From: Halobacteriovorax sp. JY17
GTDB taxonomy: Bacteria > Bdellovibrionota > Bacteriovoracia > Bacteriovoracales > Bacteriovoracaceae
NCBI RefSeq assembly: GCF_002753895.1
Contig: NZ_NJER01000004.1
Coordinates: 1-64,000 of the forward strand
Reading direction: 5' to 3'
DNA length: 64,000 nucleotides
In this document: in pieces, positions 3,404 to 13,250 of the stretch
Layout: every line of letters begins with the position of its first letter
Position numbering within the stretch: position 1 is the stretch's first letter
Made by a program: the position numbers and the translations under genes
The notes under the pieces: generated by a model
What the model was told of the DNA's origin: nothing
Databases searched by the model: none
The model's input: the letters and a program-made list of their open reading frames with translations, nothing else

Positions 3404-3575
3404 GTAGGTGCATTTTGTTTATATGTTGATTTTATTAAAGTGAAGGTTGACCGAAAGTTGTTTAGTTATATTAATAATTACTTTACAGGTGTGAATGAGA
3501 TATCAGTCTCTTATGAGCTAAGTCTCAGTTAGAGAGTGGTAATAGTTGACAGAAATTGTATAAAATGTTGTAAAA

Positions 3576-3614
3576 AGTGCAATATTGCACTATTCTGACC
3601 AGAATGGATATAAT
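3576..3614 (+). promoter_or_regulatory. Promoter with 16-bp palindromic operator
   Basis: AGTGCAATATTGCACT (3576-3591) is a perfect palindrome. TTGCAC within it can act as a -35 with a perfect TATAAT 18 bases on (3609-3614). A second -35-like TTGACA lies at 3546-3551. A palindrome over the promoter of an operon that encodes an HTH antitoxin is the expected layout for autorepression. Which promoter is used, and so which start codon of the first gene applies, is not settled. Confidence 0.6.
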
Positions 3615-4043
3615 ATGAATGAAGCTTATGGCTGGTTATTTGCAAAATGGCTTCCCTCACACGGTGCAGAGAAGATAGTCTGTCAGGATAGTATTACTAT
3701 GCTTATAGATTATTTTAAAAAAGTTGGAGGTTATGAGTGTAGCCCTAATATTAAGCTTTTGAACTCTCTGGATACCTTGTTTGATTTGATGAAGTTTAGC
3801 TTAAGTGAAGAGGAGTTAATTGAAAAGGCAGGGGTGCAGTTGAATGAACATAGACAACTTTGGGAAACGCATTTAGATCAGTCTCATAATAAGGTGTTTG
3901 AAATGCCTCTTGTGATGAATGAAAGTGAACAAGAAGCTCGGTATTTTAAAGTAATAATTGCTTTAAAACTACTCACTGTTGAAGAGCTAGAGTCTATGGA
4001 AGAAATAAGTGTAAGTTTTCATGAGCTTAGAAAAGAAAAATGA
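3615..4043 (+). CDS. First gene of toxin-antitoxin-chaperone-like operon, candidate toxin of unknown family
   Basis: About 142 residues from the ATG at 3615, mostly acidic and helical, with no family I recognise. It is not MqsR, HigB/RelE or HicA by eye. It precedes an MqsA-like antitoxin gene by 22 bases and a SecB-like gene follows, so by position it is the toxin of a TAC module. Start choice is uncertain: a TTG at 3585 lies inside the operator palindrome, the ATG at 3615 has no clear ribosome binding site and abuts the -10, and an ATG at 3699 has AGGA ten bases upstream and would give 114 residues. Toxicity is pure inference from gene order. Confidence 0.6.
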   Translation: MNEAYGWLFAKWLPSHGAEKIVCQDSITMLIDYFKKVGGYECSPNIKLLNSLDTLFDLMKFSLSEEELIEKAGVQLNEHRQLWETHLDQSHNKVFEMPLVMNESEQEARYFKVIIALKLLTVEELESMEEISVSFHELRKEK

Positions 4044-4065
4044 GAATAAAGATGGGAGAGGAATT

Positions 4066-4683
4066 ATGAAATGCCCAATATGTAATAGTGGAAAGATAGT
4101 AAGTCAAAAAGAGTCATTTACTACACCTTATAAAGCTAGTAATGGAGATGATCTTGTTGTGCCAAATGTTTTAGTTCAGTCATGTAAAGATTGTGAGGAA
4201 ACTTGGATTGAAGCTGCGGAAAGCAAGAGAGTTGGAAAGTGGATTGCAAAAGAAAGGTTTACTCCATTATCAAGAGAAGAAATAAAAAGATTAAGAGAGT
4301 CGCTCCCTGTAGGGACTAAGACCGAGTTGGCTGAGTTGTTATGCCTAAATGAGAAGGCCTTCGTTAAGTGGGAGAAGGGCTATAATGAGCCGAATAAGGC
4401 AAATGATTTATTACTAAGGCTTATTGCAAGAAGTAGGGACAATTTTGACTTTGTAAAAAGTCTTCATAAGAAAAATTTTAAATTTGATGCTAGTGACTAC
4501 TTTTGGTTACAGGTGAATGAAGAGGAGAGTGATATCTCTAGCGCTGATTATTTATCATATAGTTACAGTAGTGTTGAGGGAACATTTTTGTCTGTAGACT
4601 CTCGCGTGCAAGTCGACTCTGTATATGATGACTATTCTGTTGAATCTAGTGAGTCTGACTTTAAGCAACCGAAGGCTGCATAA
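4066..4683 (+). CDS. MqsA-like antitoxin with C-terminal extension (candidate chaperone-addiction tail)
   Basis: A 205-residue protein. Residues 1-45 form a YgiT/MqsA-type zinc finger (CPIC at 3-6, CKDC at 40-43). Residues about 70-120 form an XRE-type helix-turn-helix (TKTELAELL...AFVKWEKG). MqsA itself is about 131 residues; here about 70 more follow, rich in Tyr, Ser, Asp and Trp. TAC antitoxins carry such a tail (ChAD), which the SecB-like chaperone binds. I chose the ATG at 4066 because GGGAGAGGA lies before it; an in-frame ATG at 4021 would overlap the upstream gene. The stop shares TAATG with the next start. It probably represses the operon through the palindrome at 3576. Confidence 0.8.
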   Translation: MKCPICNSGKIVSQKESFTTPYKASNGDDLVVPNVLVQSCKDCEETWIEAAESKRVGKWIAKERFTPLSREEIKRLRESLPVGTKTELAELLCLNEKAFVKWEKGYNEPNKANDLLLRLIARSRDNFDFVKSLHKKNFKFDASDYFWLQVNEEESDISSADYLSYSYSSVEGTFLSVDSRVQVDSVYDDYSVESSESDFKQPKAA

Positions 4684-5126
4684 TGAGTGAAGCTGTTATA
4701 GGTTATAAATTGAATGATATTCTTTTTTCGAGAATTGTTGGTCATTTTGAGAACTATGAGCCTGTAAAATTTAAAATTAGTTATTTCATTTCAGCTGAAA
4801 TAGAGTCAGATGATTGTATCTCATTAAAAATGGGAATACAGTTGGCTCCTGAAGATTTTTCTCCAGGTTCTAAGGTTTCTCAGATGATTCTTGTTGAGTG
4901 TATTGGAGTCTTTAAAACTAAAGGTGGAGAAATTCCTAAGATGAGTTTTGTTGAGGAATTTAATTTAGCACCAAATATGTTAGCAACTCTTTATCCTTTT
5001 TTAAGAGAAAAGGTTCACTATTTATTTTCCGCGAATAGGGTAAATTACTTTTTAGATTCATTTAATATTATTAACTTTCTTAATAATAATAAAGAAAAAT
5101 TTAAAGTAGAAGATAAGAGAAAGTAG
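4683..5126 (+). CDS. SecB-like chaperone of a toxin-antitoxin-chaperone module
   Basis: A 147-residue protein, about the length of SecB (155). The C-terminal segment NMLATLYPFLREKVHYLFS followed by an FNIINFL-type end matches SecB's 'NCPQ.LFPYARE.V..L..RG.FP...L.PVNF'. The start overlaps the antitoxin stop by one base (TAATG), implying coupled translation. In known TAC modules a dedicated SecB-like protein protects the antitoxin by binding its C-terminal tail. The position after an extended MqsA-like antitoxin argues for that role over general export. Confidence 0.78.
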   Translation: MSEAVIGYKLNDILFSRIVGHFENYEPVKFKISYFISAEIESDDCISLKMGIQLAPEDFSPGSKVSQMILVECIGVFKTKGGEIPKMSFVEEFNLAPNMLATLYPFLREKVHYLFSANRVNYFLDSFNIINFLNNNKEKFKVEDKRK

Positions 5127-5304: not shown

Positions 5305-5460
5305 GACGCAAAATTACTCCCTAATTTCAAATATTGTGGACAATAGCTAGCAACAAACCCAAGTTTGTTAAGTTAATAAAAGTATTATGTTTTATTGTAT
5401 TTTATGTATGTGTACTTACATCTGGTGGAGTTGGTAGAAATAGCACCTCCGCCGTCCCGC

Positions 5461-5471
5461 CACCTCCACCA
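5461..5471 (+). repeat. Putative attachment site copy 2
   Basis: CACCTCCACCA again, here preceded by TCCCGC. TCCCGC-CACCTCC-ACCA reads as the 3' half of a T-stem, the acceptor strand and the CCA tail, a longer match to a tRNA-Ala/tmRNA 3' end than the other two copies. A second CACCTCC lies at 5444-5450. I infer it is the boundary between blocks A and B. Confidence 0.45.
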
Positions 5472-5854: not shown

Positions 5855-5972
5855 AAGGTCGGATAAAGAGATTCAAGATATTCTTTTAACTAGTAGTCAT
5901 TGCTTGTCATAAGGCATAATCACTGTCACAATTTTAACTGCTTACAACCTCAAATTATGTGGAGTCGAGTTG

Positions 5973-6164
5973 ATGGAACAACCGGAAAGATGGCTGTCAG
6001 TGATGGAAATCGCTGAGCATCTAGGCATTTCTAAAGAGACCGTTTACCGCTGGCTTGATAAGGGAAAGATTCCTTCAAACAAAGTCGGCAAACAATGGAA
6101 ATTCAAAATTAGTGAAGTAGATGAATGGGTCAAGTCCGGTGGGGCTGTAGATAATAACGATTAG
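5973..6164 (+). CDS. Small HTH (excisionase/MerR-type) DNA-binding protein
   Basis: A 63-residue protein made almost entirely of a winged-helix domain of the HTH_17/excisionase kind: LSVMEIAEHLGISKETVYRW, then a wing with GK(Q)WKFK and a closing EVDEWV helix. Such proteins read short operators or tidy recombinase sites, and they are also common as the first gene of type I restriction operons. The ATG at 5973 has GGAG ten bases upstream; a TTG one codon earlier is possible. It precedes hsdM by 17 bases, so it may control the operon. Confidence 0.8.
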   Translation: MEQPERWLSVMEIAEHLGISKETVYRWLDKGKIPSNKVGKQWKFKISEVDEWVKSGGAVDNND

Positions 6165-6181: not shown

Positions 6182-8977
6182 ATGGCAATTAAGAAGAGTG
6201 ATTTATATCAAAGGATTTGGGCAAGTTGTGATGCTCTAAGAGGTGGAATGGATGCTAGTCAATATAAAGACTATGTCCTAACGATGTTATTCATTAAGTA
6301 TGTTTCTGATAAAGCTAAAGGAGATAAGTTTCCTGAGATTAAGGTGCCTAAAGGTGCAAGCTTTGATGACATGCTAGAGTTTAGAAATAAGTCAGACATT
6401 GGCGACCTAATAAATAAGAAAGTTATTGGGAAAATAGATAAAGAAAATGAGTTAGGTGGTATTTTAATTAAAGTTGATTTTAACAATCCTGAGTTACTTG
6501 GAACAGGCAAGGAGATGGTTGATAGACTGACTGAGCTTGTTAATATCTTCCATAGTGATGACTTAGACTTTTCAAAAAATAAAGCTGATGGTGATGATGT
6601 ATTAGGTGATGCTTATGAATACCTAATGAAGCACTTTGCCACACAGAGTGGTAAGAGTAAGGGGCAGTTCTATACACCTTCAGAAGTCAGTAGAATTCTT
6701 GCAAAAGTAATTGGTGTCACACCTAAAAATGTTAAGGCCAATACAACTGTATATGACCCGACATGTGGTTCTGGTTCTCTTCTTTTAAAAGTAGCAGCTG
6801 AAACCAATAATAAAGTAACTTTGTACGGGCAAGAAAAGGATGTTTCTACAGCTGGTCTGGCAAAGATGAATATGGTTCTCCATCAAAATGCAGTGGCTCT
6901 AAAAAACATTATGTATGGAAACACTCTTTCAGACCCAAAACATAAAACTAATGGAGAGTTAACACAATTCGACTATGTTGTGGCCAATCCTCCTTTTTCA
7001 GATAAAGTTTGGTCAACAGGTTTAACTCCAAGTTCTGATGAGCATGGAAGATTTCAAGACTTTGGTTGTCCTCCAGATAAGAATGGAGATTATGCTTATC
7101 TTCTTCATATCCTTCGTTCCTTAAAATCAAAAGGTAAGGGAGCCGTTATTCTTCCTCATGGAGTCTTATTTAGAGGTAATGCGGAAGAAGATATAAGAGA
7201 GAACCTTGTTAAAAGAGGCTATATAAAGGCCATTATTGGTCTTCCAGCAAACCTTTTCTTTGGAACTGGTATTCCCGCTTGTATCATCGTTTTAGATAAA
7301 GAAGATGCAGACAAGCGTGAAGGTATCTTTATGATTGATGCCGGAAAGGGATTTGTTAAGGACGGTAACAAGAATAAGCTTCAAGAAAAAGACATTCATA
7401 AGATTGTTGATGCCTATCAGAAGAAAGAAGATATTCCAGGTTTCTCTAGATTCGTAGAAAACAAAGAAATTGAAGAGAATGAGTATAACTTAAATATACC
7501 TAGGTTTATTGAATCAACTGATGAGGAAATTAAGCAGGATATTGAAGCACACCTTCTTGGAGGTATTCCTACTCGTGATGTTAATCAGTTCGAAGACTTC
7601 TGGAAGGAATGTCCTGGTATCAAGAAAGAACTCTTTGCGAAGTCAGCAAGGGAAGGCTATTACGATTTAAAAATTGATAAGAATCAGATTAGACAAACGA
7701 TTTTTGAACATATTGAATTTAAAGAGTTTTCATCCAAATCTCATGCTTCTTTTGAAAAATGGATTGAGCAGTCTAAGAAAAAGCTTGAGAAGTTTAAAGA
7801 GGGAGAGCACCCAAAAGAGTTAATCTTCGAAATCTCAGAGGAGTTGCTTGAAGCATTTCCTAAAGAAGGTTTGATTAATAAATACAACGTGTATCAAAGC
7901 CTGATGACCTATTGGGAAGAAGAAATGCAAGATGATGTTTATGCAATTTCAGCAGATTCATGGAAGGTGGCCCAGGAGTTTAAAAGATTAAAAACAGATA
8001 AAGGAAAAGAGAAGAAAGGTATTGATGGTATTGAAGGAATAATAATTCCGCCAATGTTGCTGGCCAAAGTTAAGCTTGGCGATTTAGTTAGCCAAGTTGA
8101 TGAAAAATCGGAGGAACTTGAAAAGCTTAATCAAGAAATGCTTGAAGTCATCTCTGAAAACTCAGGGGATGAAGCAATTTTCGATGATATTGATGAAGGA
8201 AAAGTTCCGGGAGCAAAGTATTTCAAGTCTAAGCTTGATGAAGTGAAGCTCATTGTATTCTCAACACTATTTAAAGATAAATCTAATAAACTAGAAGCAA
8301 TCAAAAATGAGAAACAAGAATTGTTAGATGAGATTGTTGAACTAGACTCGAATGATGCGAATGGAGAAGGCTACCTTGATGACAAGGTTAGAAATAAGAA
8401 AGGTGTTCTCTCTATTTCAAGTGTCGGAAAGCTTGTTAAGTCTGAGTATGAAGTTACAGGCAAGGCCCAATTAGATGGTAGTTGGGTAAAAAGCAAGAAG
8501 GATAAGCTATTCTATTCACTAATTACTAAGAATAATGAAATTAAGGATTTAGACAAAGAGTTTAAAGCAATTGTAAGTGAAATGAGTGAATCATTCACTA
8601 AGATGAGTGACGTTTCAGGTGAAGAAGTTGATAACTTGAAGATAGTTGAAGATTTGTGCTCTGAGAAATCTCGCTATGATGAACTTAAGAAAGAAAAAGA
8701 TGGGCTAGAAAATACACTCGAAACTAGAATTCAAGAAGAATATCCCAAGCTTTCAGAGAGAGACATTAAGCTTATTGTTATCGAAAAGAAATGGTTAGAG
8801 TTTTTATCTGAGCAATTCGAAGGTGAAATTGAAAAAGTTAGTTATGAGCTAGATGAAGGTATTCAGTCTTTAGTTGAGAGGTATGAATCAACTTTGCCAA
8901 GCTTGCTTGAATCAGTAGGTAGTCTTGAAAAGTCTGTTTTTTCGGATTTAGAATCTATGGGGTTTTCATGGAAATAG
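6182..8977 (+). CDS. hsdM: Type I restriction-modification methyltransferase subunit HsdM
   Basis: A 931-residue N6-adenine methyltransferase subunit; with HsdS it methylates the target, with HsdR it restricts. The N-terminal HsdM helical domain covers residues 1-150. GQFYTP lies near 161-166, SAM-binding DPTCGSGS at 192-199, and catalytic NPPF at 269-272. The catalytic core ends near 480. About 450 further residues, strongly Lys/Glu-rich with heptad-like coiled-coil character, make it much longer than classic HsdM (about 500). Start ATG behind AGGGAAAAT. The hsdS start overlaps its end by ten bases. Confidence 0.95.
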   Translation: MAIKKSDLYQRIWASCDALRGGMDASQYKDYVLTMLFIKYVSDKAKGDKFPEIKVPKGASFDDMLEFRNKSDIGDLINKKVIGKIDKENELGGILIKVDFNNPELLGTGKEMVDRLTELVNIFHSDDLDFSKNKADGDDVLGDAYEYLMKHFATQSGKSKGQFYTPSEVSRILAKVIGVTPKNVKANTTVYDPTCGSGSLLLKVAAETNNKVTLYGQEKDVSTAGLAKMNMVLHQNAVALKNIMYGNTLSDPKHKTNGELTQFDYVVANPPFSDKVWSTGLTPSSDEHGRFQDFGCPPDKNGDYAYLLHILRSLKSKGKGAVILPHGVLFRGNAEEDIRENLVKRGYIKAIIGLPANLFFGTGIPACIIVLDKEDADKREGIFMIDAGKGFVKDGNKNKLQEKDIHKIVDAYQKKEDIPGFSRFVENKEIEENEYNLNIPRFIESTDEEIKQDIEAHLLGGIPTRDVNQFEDFWKECPGIKKELFAKSAREGYYDLKIDKNQIRQTIFEHIEFKEFSSKSHASFEKWIEQSKKKLEKFKEGEHPKELIFEISEELLEAFPKEGLINKYNVYQSLMTYWEEEMQDDVYAISADSWKVAQEFKRLKTDKGKEKKGIDGIEGIIIPPMLLAKVKLGDLVSQVDEKSEELEKLNQEMLEVISENSGDEAIFDDIDEGKVPGAKYFKSKLDEVKLIVFSTLFKDKSNKLEAIKNEKQELLDEIVELDSNDANGEGYLDDKVRNKKGVLSISSVGKLVKSEYEVTGKAQLDGSWVKSKKDKLFYSLITKNNEIKDLDKEFKAIVSEMSESFTKMSDVSGEEVDNLKIVEDLCSEKSRYDELKKEKDGLENTLETRIQEEYPKLSERDIKLIVIEKKWLEFLSEQFEGEIEKVSYELDEGIQSLVERYESTLPSLLESVGSLEKSVFSDLESMGFSWK

Positions 8978-10206
8978 CCAATAATTGGAAGGAGCTTACA
9001 TTATCTTCAGTTGCTACATTAAAAGCTAGGATTGGTTGGCAAGCACTCAGGAAAGATGAATATTTAAGAAGAGGAGAATTTACCTTAGTTACTGGCACAG
9101 ATTTCAAGGATGGATTTGTAAATTGGAAAAGTTGCTCTTATGTTGATAAGGCTAGATTCTCTATGGATAAGAATATTCAGCTGAAAGAGAATGATGTTCT
9201 TGTTACAAAAGATGGTACGATAGGTAAGGTTGCAATTGTTAGAGGAATAAACAAACCTGCGACATTAAATAGTGGTGTTTTCGTAATCAGGTCCACTTCA
9301 AAAGATTTGTCACAGGAGTATTTGTATTTAATATTTAAAAGTCCATACTTCAAATCATACCTTAGCCGTATTACAGCTGGCTCAACAATTACACATTTAT
9401 ATCAAAAAGATTTTGTGTACTTTAACTTTCCAGTCCCTGACATCCATGAGCAAAAACGATTTGTTTCGGTGTTTAGCAATATTGATAATTTGATACATAA
9501 AACGACTAAAATCTTAGAAAAAAAGAAAAACATCAAACAAGGTCTAATGCAGGAACTCTTAACTGGAAAAAGACGTCTTCCTGAGTTTACTAAAAATTGG
9601 GATGGGAAATATAAGAAGACTGATGTGGGTAATATCCCAATCGATTGGGATATAAATTGTCTCAAGAGTTTCTGTACATTCTTTAACGGCCAGGCCCATG
9701 AGAAGTTTATAGATAAAATGGGTAAATACAAACTTATAAATTCAAAGTTTATATCAACAGAGGGTGGTGTTTATAAAAATACGAATACTTGTATTCAGCC
9801 ATTAAGTAAAGGTGATGTCGTAATTGTGATGAGTGATATACCGAATGGGAAAGCACTTGCTAAAACTTTCTTTGTTGAAAGTGATGAGAAGTACACTTTG
9901 AACCAGCGAATTGGTGGAATACGGGCTCGCGGTTGTTTTGATAAGTTTTTGTATTATATCTTAAATAGAAATAGTTATTATTTATCTTTCGATAGCGGAA
10001 CTGGCCAAACAAATTTAAGAAAGGAAAATGTTCTAGAATGTCCTATTGTCTTGCCAGAAAAAATTGAAGAGCAAAAAGCAATTTGTGCAGTTCTAGATGA
10101 AGCCAATTTGGAGATAGCTACATTGTCAAAAAAACTTGGGAAATATAAAAAAATCAAAGATGGAATGATGCAAACACTCCTTACTGGAGAGATAAGGTTA
10201 GTATAA
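8968..10206 (+). CDS. hsdS: Type I restriction-modification specificity subunit HsdS
   Basis: A 412-residue specificity subunit that recognises the bipartite DNA target. There are two target-recognition domains (about 5-165 and 205-365). Each ends in the conserved helical repeat: EQKRFVSVF...GLMQELLTGKRRLP after the first and EQKAICAVL...DGMMQTLLTGEIRL after the second. The start overlaps hsdM and its stop is two bases before hsdR, so the three subunits are co-translated. The specificity cannot be read from the sequence. Confidence 0.95.
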   Translation: MEIANNWKELTLSSVATLKARIGWQALRKDEYLRRGEFTLVTGTDFKDGFVNWKSCSYVDKARFSMDKNIQLKENDVLVTKDGTIGKVAIVRGINKPATLNSGVFVIRSTSKDLSQEYLYLIFKSPYFKSYLSRITAGSTITHLYQKDFVYFNFPVPDIHEQKRFVSVFSNIDNLIHKTTKILEKKKNIKQGLMQELLTGKRRLPEFTKNWDGKYKKTDVGNIPIDWDINCLKSFCTFFNGQAHEKFIDKMGKYKLINSKFISTEGGVYKNTNTCIQPLSKGDVVIVMSDIPNGKALAKTFFVESDEKYTLNQRIGGIRARGCFDKFLYYILNRNSYYLSFDSGTGQTNLRKENVLECPIVLPEKIEEQKAICAVLDEANLEIATLSKKLGKYKKIKDGMMQTLLTGEIRLV

Positions 10207-10208
10207 TC

Positions 10209-13200
10209 ATGGAAGAAACAAAAGACATTGGAGAGTTGGAAAGAGAAACTCAGGATAGAGTTGTTAAGCTTTTTAAGAATGAGCTTGATTTTGAGTATCT
10301 TGGTGACTGGCAAGATAGACCTAATAATAGCAATATTGAAGAAGAATACCTTCGTAAATACCTAGAATCTACTGGTGAATATTCAGAGAACTTAATTAAG
10401 AGAACTATTGATAAGCTCAAGAAGCTGGCTGAAGTTCATGGTGATGATTTATATGAAGTAAATAAAGCCTTTCATCAACTTCTTACTCATGGTGTGGATA
10501 TAAAAGAAGATGCCAGTAGTCCATCTGAGAAAGTTCACATTATTAATTGGAATGAGCCCCTTACAAACCATTTTGCTATTGCAGAAGAAGTTACTCTCAT
10601 TGAAGCAGAGAATAAGAGACCAGATATCGTTTTATATGTAAATGGTATCGCATTAGGTGTTTTGGAACTTAAAAGAGGATGTGTATCAATTGATGAGGGA
10701 GTGAGGCAAAGTATTACCAATCAAGATGGTAAGTTTATCAAATCTTTCTTTTCTACGATTCAATTCATCTTTGCGGGAAATAATTCAGAAGGTCTGAAGT
10801 ATGGTGCTATTGGAACTCCTGAGAAGTATTATCTGAGCTGGAAAGAAGATATTGATGATGTATCAAGACTTAGACTTGATAAGTATCTACTTAAGATGTG
10901 TAACAAAGAACGATTCCTCGAGTTCATTAGAGATTTTGCTTTGTTTGATGGAGGAACAAAGAAACTTCCTAGACCTCACCAGTATTTTGGTGTTAAGGCA
11001 GCTCAAGAGAATGTTAGAGAGCAAGAAGGTGGGGTTATTTGGCACACCCAAGGAAGTGGTAAATCCATTACCATGGTTCTCCTTGCCAAGTGGATATTAA
11101 GGAATAATCACAATGCTAGAGTTCTTGTCATAACAGATAGAACTGAGCTTGATGAGCAGATTGAGAAAGTTTTCAAAAGGGCCGGTGAAAAGAAGATATA
11201 TAAAACCTCTAGTGGAAAAGACTTAATGCACCAGCTATCCCAGCCAAGTCCATCCTTATTATGTTCTCTAGTACATAAATTTGGAACTTCAAAAGGTGAG
11301 AAGAAAAAAGAGAAAGAATATTACGATAAATTCATTGAAGAATTAAAGAAAAACCCTCCGAAAGTACAGGGAGATGTATTTGTCTTTGTTGATGAATGCC
11401 ATAGAACTCAAAGTGGCCGCCTGAATGATGTAATGAAGGCCATTCTTGGGGATGCAACCTTTATTGGCTTCACAGGTACTCCATTACTGAAACAAAATAA
11501 AGCCACTACAAAAAGTATCTTTGGTGATTATATACATACTTATAAGTTTGACGAGGCAGTAGAGGATAAGATTGTCTTAGACCTTTGTTATGAAGCTAGG
11601 GATGTTGACCAAGAAATATATGCTAAGGATAAAGTTGATAAGTATTTTGAAGTTAAAACAAAGAACTTAAACAACTATCAAAGAAGTCTTTTGAAGCAAA
11701 AATGGGCAACTATGCAAAGGCTTCACAGTTCCCGTTCACGCCATGAGAAAATTGTTAAAGACATTGTGTTTGATTTTGATGTTAAGCAACGCTTAAGCTC
11801 AGGGCGTGGAAATGCAATGCTTGTTGCTAGTAGTATCTATGAGGCTACAAAGTATTATGATGAGTTTGAGAAAACGCCACTAAAAGGTAAATGTGCCGTA
11901 ATTACTTCTTATCAACCAAGTAAGAAAGACTTAAAGAATGAAGATACTGGAGCAAATACAGAAACAGAGAAAACATATCTATTTAATAAGTACACTGAGA
12001 TTCTAGATGGTAAGAAGACCAGTAAGTATGAAAGTGAGATGAAAGAGAAGTTCATTGAAAAACCAAGTGAAATGAGGCTTCTTATTGTCGTAGATAAACT
12101 TCTTACTGGATTTGATGCACCATCTTGCTCTTATCTATATATTGATAAATCAATGCAAGACCATGGGCTATTTCAAGCAATTTGTCGTGTAAATAGACTT
12201 GATACTGATGATAAAGACTATGGTTTTATCGTAGACTTTAGAGACCTATTTAATAGCGTTAAAGGTGCGATTAAGGTTTATACTTCTGAAGTCGATGAAG
12301 AATGTGGTGATGGGCCTTCTATTCATGAAAGACTTGAGAAGGCCAAGAAACGATTAGATGAGGCTCTTGAGAAAGCAAAGCTTCTCTGTGAAGGTGTCGA
12401 GCCTCCCAAAAGTGCTCTTGAGTACCAATTATACTTTTGTGGTAATCCTGACGACCCTAAAGAACTTAAGGCAACAGAAGTCAGAAGGATATATCTATAT
12501 AAAGCAGTAACGGCACTCACAAGAGCATATAGTTCAATTTCGGGTGAGTTATTAGATGCTGGTTACTCAATAGAAGAAATTAAAGAGATTGAAGATGATG
12601 TTAATTTCTTCTTAAAACTCAAAAACGAAATTAAGAGAGCAAGTGGTGAGACTCTTGACTTGAAGAGTTATGAAGCTGATATGAGGCATCTGATGGATAA
12701 CTATATCGAGGCTAAGGAGCCAGAAGTTATATCTCCTTTCAGTGATATGTCTCTTTTGACTCTAATTAAGAAATTAGGGATTAAGGAAGCATTGGAGCAA
12801 TATGGTGAAAAGCGAGCGAATGCAGCTTCTACAGTTCTAAGGAATGTAAGAAAGAAACTAGTCGATGATATGGCTTTGGACCAGTCTTTCTATGAAAAGA
12901 TGTCTAAAATTCTTGATGAGCTAGTTCAAAAACGAAAAGAAGATGCAATTACTTATGAAGCTTATTTACAAAAACTAGCAGATATTGCAAGTACTGTTGA
13001 AGATGGCCGTGAGGACGATGTTCCAAGTGAAATAAAGTCTAAAGGACAAGTTGCCCTATATAACAATCTAAATAATGACGTAGAACTTGCACTTAAAATT
13101 GATTCAACTGTGAAATCAACAGCTCCTCATAAATGGAGGGGAAATGTTGCAGCTGAGCAAAAAGTAATGAAGGCCATCTGGGAAGTTGTCCAAGATGATG

Positions 13201-13250
13201 AATTGCTTGAAAAGGTTTTCGGGATTATTAAAGCAAATGAAGAGTATTAA
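10209..13250 (+). CDS. hsdR: Type I restriction endonuclease subunit HsdR
   Basis: A 1013-residue motor and nuclease subunit. An N-terminal PD-(D/E)XK nuclease is seen near residues 137-157 (PDIVLYVNGIALGVLELKRG). The helicase motor has Walker A HTQGSGKS near 280, Walker B DECHR near 395, and motif III FTGTPL. The C-terminal part is helical, as usual for assembly with HsdM. Length is normal. The stop shares TAATG with the metallopeptidase start downstream, so the operon continues. Confidence 0.95.
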   Translation: MEETKDIGELERETQDRVVKLFKNELDFEYLGDWQDRPNNSNIEEEYLRKYLESTGEYSENLIKRTIDKLKKLAEVHGDDLYEVNKAFHQLLTHGVDIKEDASSPSEKVHIINWNEPLTNHFAIAEEVTLIEAENKRPDIVLYVNGIALGVLELKRGCVSIDEGVRQSITNQDGKFIKSFFSTIQFIFAGNNSEGLKYGAIGTPEKYYLSWKEDIDDVSRLRLDKYLLKMCNKERFLEFIRDFALFDGGTKKLPRPHQYFGVKAAQENVREQEGGVIWHTQGSGKSITMVLLAKWILRNNHNARVLVITDRTELDEQIEKVFKRAGEKKIYKTSSGKDLMHQLSQPSPSLLCSLVHKFGTSKGEKKKEKEYYDKFIEELKKNPPKVQGDVFVFVDECHRTQSGRLNDVMKAILGDATFIGFTGTPLLKQNKATTKSIFGDYIHTYKFDEAVEDKIVLDLCYEARDVDQEIYAKDKVDKYFEVKTKNLNNYQRSLLKQKWATMQRLHSSRSRHEKIVKDIVFDFDVKQRLSSGRGNAMLVASSIYEATKYYDEFEKTPLKGKCAVITSYQPSKKDLKNEDTGANTETEKTYLFNKYTEILDGKKTSKYESEMKEKFIEKPSEMRLLIVVDKLLTGFDAPSCSYLYIDKSMQDHGLFQAICRVNRLDTDDKDYGFIVDFRDLFNSVKGAIKVYTSEVDEECGDGPSIHERLEKAKKRLDEALEKAKLLCEGVEPPKSALEYQLYFCGNPDDPKELKATEVRRIYLYKAVTALTRAYSSISGELLDAGYSIEEIKEIEDDVNFFLKLKNEIKRASGETLDLKSYEADMRHLMDNYIEAKEPEVISPFSDMSLLTLIKKLGIKEALEQYGEKRANAASTVLRNVRKKLVDDMALDQSFYEKMSKILDELVQKRKEDAITYEAYLQKLADIASTVEDGREDDVPSEIKSKGQVALYNNLNNDVELALKIDSTVKSTAPHKWRGNVAAEQKVMKAIWEVVQDDELLEKVFGIIKANEEY

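Follow-up and report, generated by a model that had tools for sequence, protein, structure and literature searches.

Does the three-gene operon near the start of this stretch of DNA encode a toxin-antitoxin-chaperone (TAC) module, and if so, what kind of protein does its first gene encode? The window, by which we mean the whole stretch of 64,000 nucleotides that was analyzed, comes from a low-GC host, a bacterium of predatory type, and carries three reading frames that a preliminary description had read as a possible toxin, a tailed antitoxin, and a chaperone. All three frames were found where that description had placed them, and the gene order and the TAATG junction between the second and third genes were confirmed, the same three-gene order recurring in four other genomes. 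The features of the locus are as follows.

3575-3592, no strand assigned: palindromic operator AAGTGCAATATTGCACTA, probable autoregulatory site; the same palindrome precedes gene 1 in 5/5 loci
3615-4043, plus strand: gene 1, putative toxin of no recognized family, 142 amino acids, ATG start
4066-4683, plus strand: gene 2, MqsA-family zinc-finger/helix-turn-helix antitoxin, 205 amino acids, ATG start, AGAGGA ahead
4645-4683, plus strand: degron-like C-terminal end of the antitoxin, SSESDFKQPKAA followed by the stop codon, 4/12 residues identical to the host's own tmRNA tag, AESNDYAMPMAA
4683-5126, plus strand: gene 3, SecB-like chaperone, 147 amino acids, start overlapping the gene 2 stop (TAATG)

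Gene 1 was searched, alone and then as a profile, across 369 Bdellovibrionota genomes. Homologs were found at four additional loci (in genomes here called G045, G112, G337, and G026), each with an MqsA-like gene and a gene 3 homolog as neighbors, and the search never found gene 1 without genes 2 and 3. The operon is thus intact and in the same order in five genomes, the window host included, and all five have the putative toxin-antitoxin-SecB-like gene order of a TAC module. The operon proteins of the four relatives are 25 to 38% identical to those of the window, and conserved features therefore do not reflect recent copying. Because the same genes recur in the same order at such low identity, we conclude from the sequence comparison that the operon is a real unit, beyond chance. 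Moreover, its presence in only 5/369 genomes, spread over three families, points to horizontal movement. A conserved-peptide search for gene 1 homologs found none in plasmids, phages, viral contigs, or a set of 84,980 species (one genome each), and a gene 2 scan of that set gave just two loci, both already known. The homolog sample, at five loci, is small. A literature search found no report of a TAC module in Bdellovibrionota, and the module is now placed in that phylum.

Gene 2 matched the MqsA_antitoxin profile PF15731 (2.3e-11) and TIGR03830 (5.8e-18), both over the cut-off, and the best matches of its profile were the MqsA structures 3gn5 and 2kz8 (4.5e-7). The zinc-ligand residues Cys3, Cys6, Cys40, and Cys43 were invariant. 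The MqsA domain spans residues 1 to 127, and the remaining residues, approximately 75, form a variable tail; gene 2 thereby combines the domain of a known antitoxin family with a C-terminal extension (ChAD), as had been proposed. We conclude from these profile matches that gene 2 truly belongs to the MqsA family.

The third protein had been called SecB-like by eye, and no SecB sequence profile matched it. Its AlphaFold2 model, built from three sequences, reached a pLDDT of 80.2, and the first 18 Foldseek matches to that model were all SecB chains, the best being the SecB structure 1qyn (8.8e-5, probability 1.00). Also among the matches was 5mtw, the complex of the Mycobacterium tuberculosis TAC chaperone Rv1957 with an antitoxin (ChAD) peptide. 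VIA gave Z scores of 13.1 to SecB and 10.3 to Rv1957 in 5mtw; of its other rows, two streptococcal proteins of unknown function scored 9 to 10 and the rest were under 5. An hhalign comparison to SecB was colinear over the full length (118 columns), with a score that 0/100 shuffles reached. Weak matches (1.3e-4) to the PADLOC CmdC model PD-T4-9_C appeared in 2/4 gene 3 homologs. Across the phylum, a search with the CmdC profile returned mostly noise, and its candidates in G250 and G091 were not TAC loci. We conclude that gene 3 has a SecB fold in its predicted structure, in agreement with the call made by eye.

Ahead of gene 1 in 5/5 loci stood the palindrome AAGTGCAATATTGCACTT, set in surrounding DNA that was unrelated from locus to locus. 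The operon-side copy was the best or tied-best match in each genome, with one to two mismatches; G000 had one more two-mismatch site elsewhere, and four genomes of the same genus searched alongside had only three-mismatch sites. The palindrome is likely an autoregulatory operator recognized by the helix-turn-helix of the antitoxin. Directly ahead of it, TTGACA (3546) and TGTAAA (3569) resemble a promoter by eye only, and a promoter scan gave nothing above chance.

The TAC reading given in the preliminary description is supported by the gene order, the tailed MqsA-type antitoxin, the SecB fold, the conserved operator, and the degron-like end. On these grounds we consider it likely that the operon is a TAC module in which the SecB-like protein shields a ClpX degron that is part of the antitoxin itself and in which gene 1 most likely encodes an MqsR/RelE-type toxin.

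The identity of the toxin is the part of that reading with the strongest competitor. Gene 1 had been assigned to no recognized toxin family, which was right by every profile tested: there was no match at E<=1 in Pfam, NCBIfam, PADLOC, or PHROGs, no significant profile match for its homologs in the same four libraries, and no significant match of gene 1 to solved structures. The MqsR profile PF15723 gave no match to gene 1 at E<=1, and the phylum search found none in G000. Conservation lies chiefly in the C-terminal half, and all twelve residues that are invariant in 5/5 homologs (Q75, L76, H79, T85, H86, E96, P98, Y110, F111, K112, H136, and E137) fall from position 75 onward. The AlphaFold2 model of gene 1 from three sequences was poor (pLDDT 50), and a fold search gave no meaningful match; the NTF2-like folds listed by Foldseek and VIA (Z under 4) were taken to mean nothing, and the absence of MqsR from those lists is not evidence against MqsR. 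Weak matches to PocR, DUF481, and ribosomal proteins were dismissed as noise.

The C terminus of gene 1 nevertheless carries an MqsR-like Y-[FL]-K ... S-F-H-E pattern, just above the level of shuffled sequences. By eye, its last three predicted strands and the Y-F-K...S-F-H-E residues align with the end of MqsR: the G045 homolog reads YFKLVLIF...VGISFHED, and in L029, a genuine MqsR from this phylum, YLKVVVRENCVVISFHED is followed by the six final residues. A profile comparison of gene 1 with MqsR scored 22.9 over the last 13 columns only, a score reached by 1/400 shuffles, and unrelated families scored 10 to 14. Profile-profile alignment gave a probability of 1 to 7% over only the last 10 to 13 columns, and the score of a global alignment of the C-terminal half was reached by 5/300 shuffles. 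In the by-eye register with the MqsR catalytic pattern, gene 1 residues H86, E96, Y110, and H136, all of them invariant, would match K56, Q68, Y81, and K96 of Escherichia coli MqsR. Other Bdellovibrionota carry longer MqsR-like genes (L031, L032, L033, and L035; about 124 to 139 amino acids) that have MqsA-like partners, do not score above the MqsR cut-off, and end in SFHP. They are possible intermediates; the gene 1 profile compared with this longer set alone gave nothing. The similarity of gene 1 to the MqsR C terminus is faint and unproven.

An MqsR/BECR ribonuclease is our leading guess for gene 1, and a new family is a strong rival, in which the same TAC architecture would carry a toxin of new fold or chemistry, unrelated to MqsR/RelE. 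We regard this rival as quite possible: no homolog had a significant profile match in the four libraries, the N-terminal half of gene 1 lacks an MqsR counterpart, and the fold search yielded nothing usable. It is set against the normal partnership of MqsA with MqsR and against the C-terminal residues in register with MqsRs such as L029. Either gene 1 would extend the range of TAC toxins beyond HigB, HicA, MqsR, and CmdT, or it would reveal the extent to which an MqsR can diverge.

The tail of the antitoxin was compared with the tmRNA tags of the hosts, as read by ARAGORN. The tags were ADDYAMPMAA in G045, GNDYALAA in G112 and G337, and, in the window host, the tag listed above. In G045, the antitoxin end ...NTADDYAMPMAA was identical to the host tag at 10/10 residues, and in G112, the end ...AGSDYALAA was identical at 7/8, each with a chance of 0/200000. 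The window antitoxin ends ...SESDFKQPKAA, for which chance gave a match as good in 538/200000 trials, about 0.003. The G337 end, ...SDSYDEVA, agreed with its host tag at 2/8 residues and is not a match; the G026 antitoxin ends ...NDYDAKAA. DYAMPMAA followed by a stop is encoded exactly twice in the G045 genome and DYALAA followed by a stop exactly twice in that of G112, in each case by the tmRNA and the operon antitoxin. Among the other 128 family genomes, the former occurred four times: in the window genome as the tmRNA tag, and once in each of three others, where the DNA is nearly identical to that of a known tag and presumably tmRNA too. A tag ending in AMPMAA (tmRNA of G000 and G045; L023 and L024) is unusual, and exact DYAMPMAA was present in just 5/129 family genomes. 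ClpX scored over its cut-off in 5/5 hosts. The window tail is only a partial match, and the tag-copy claim thus rests on two relatives, G045 and G112.

We consider it unlikely that the tag-like tails arose by coincidence or by recombination with the tmRNA gene and play no role in degradation. The DNA of tail and tag differs at only 2/27 bases in G045 and 3/21 in G112, which would allow a copying event, and the tails of G337 and the window match weakly. Those differences are all synonymous, however, the upstream DNA is unrelated, and the matches run right up to the stop codon, each being of the tag type that its host has, AMPMAA or ALAA. Tentatively, gene 1 may be the toxin of a new family in a TAC module, with an antitoxin that adopted the host tmRNA tag as its degron, the degron changing with the host tag (AMPMAA versus ALAA). 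If so, the module would monitor the ClpXP pathway by which the products of trans-translation are cleared, and the switch would be set when that pathway or the chaperone was overloaded.

Instability in the absence of the chaperone is a known property of TAC antitoxins, for few of which the degron has been mapped. In M. tuberculosis, HigA1 terminates in a Val-Ala ClpX degron that shares its region with the chaperone site and is masked by the SecB-like chaperone (PMC8165232). Loss of the chaperone CmdC leads to degradation of CmdA by ClpP, and a phage capsid protein draws CmdC away (PMC11618068). Four validated TAC antitoxins, read from published primers, end in QVEVA, ACYV, HAQG, and KQYA, none of which is a tmRNA tag (PMC5105189), and none of the papers found, in a search of open-access literature, describes an antitoxin that carries the tmRNA tag of its host. 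A tail that copies the tag would be a ready-made, testable degron and would explain the need for a chaperone, a guardian that probably acts by hiding the tag from the host protease.

For the favored TAC module, we infer that gene 1 is toxic and cleaves RNA, that repression acts through the palindrome, that the antitoxin depends on the chaperone and is degraded by ClpXP, and that a phage is the trigger, elements that would fit together as follows. The MqsA-type gene 2 product would bind the gene 1 product, keeping the toxin inactive, and would repress the operon via the palindrome ahead of gene 1. The antitoxin tail would end in a ClpX degron modeled on the host tmRNA tag, such that free antitoxin would be destroyed by ClpXP unless the SecB-like protein covered the tail. 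Were the chaperone drawn away, as it is in CmdTAC by capsid protein, the antitoxin would be degraded and the freed gene 1 product, most likely of the RNA-cleaving MqsR/RelE (BECR) kind, would stop growth and abort phage infection.

A role in defense is suggested because a type I restriction system (HsdM, HsdS, and HsdR; 6182-13247) lies downstream of the operon here and a phage terminase small-subunit gene adjoins the G112 copy; these surroundings fit a defense island. Beside the operon, an excisionase-like helix-turn-helix gene (5970-6164) scores near the MADS MAD1 model, below its cut-off. At 5456-5471, 330 bp past the operon, is an exact copy of the last 16 nucleotides of the host tmRNA gene (chance 0.00), which looks like the edge of an island at an ssrA integration site; a 14/16 copy of the tmRNA-gene 3' end lies at 632-647. 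The host tmRNA gene lies on a different contig, where a serine-recombinase gene (L023:1837-3381) comes immediately after it. On the minus strand, 739-1476 encodes a DUF2971-like protein with a weak match to the PADLOC candidate PDC-S31 (3.4e-5).

It is improbable that the operon has no toxin function and that gene 1 instead serves a regulatory chaperone pair as its client or cofactor: gene 1 is not a known toxin and its toxicity is itself an inference, but the palindrome, the gene junctions, the antitoxin family, the chaperone fold, and the patchy distribution all fit a TAC module. Least probable of all is that gene 1 is an ADP-ribosyltransferase like CmdT and the module a CmdTAC, a reading to which the weak CmdC matches (PD-T4-9_C) of gene 3 homologs and the invariant H, Y, and E of gene 1 in HY-E triad order lend something, but against which the four gene 1 homologs match no PADLOC model (CmdT included if it is modeled there), H79 to E137 spans just 58 residues, short for an ADP-ribosyltransferase fold, and the antitoxin is a zinc-finger MqsA, whereas CmdA is described as two helices and a disordered tail (PMC11618068).

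How does the operon compare with known TAC systems? The preliminary description named toxins of the HigB and MqsR types, which stands but is incomplete, as HicAB-type TACs have been validated (PMC5105189) and CmdTAC, the toxin of which is an ADP-ribosyltransferase, also exists (PMC11618068, PMC9519451). CmdTAC (PD-T4-9) shares with the window operon three genes and a SecB-like third component, PD-T4-9_C matching two homologs, and its antitoxin is a target of ClpP in the absence of the chaperone; it differs in that CmdT is an ADP-ribosyltransferase and CmdA is not described as MqsA-like. HigBA1-Rv1957 of M. tuberculosis resembles the operon in the SecB fold of the third protein (5mtw, Z 10.3) and in an antitoxin tail that holds the chaperone site and a ClpX degron with a Val-Ala end (PMC8165232). 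There, however, toxin and antitoxin are of the HigB/HigA family, in place of a gene 1 of no family and an MqsA, and the antitoxin end ...QVEVA (from a primer) is not a copy of a tmRNA tag. MqsRAC, known from Vibrio cholerae RC385 (PMC5105189) and E. coli C496_10 (PMC9519451), differs in that PF15723 does not recognize gene 1 of the window operon as an MqsR and that the V. cholerae antitoxin ends ...ELEACYV (from a published primer), which is not tag-like. In both MqsRAC and the window operon, the toxin gene comes first and is followed by an MqsA-family antitoxin with a C-terminal extension and then by a SecB-like chaperone.
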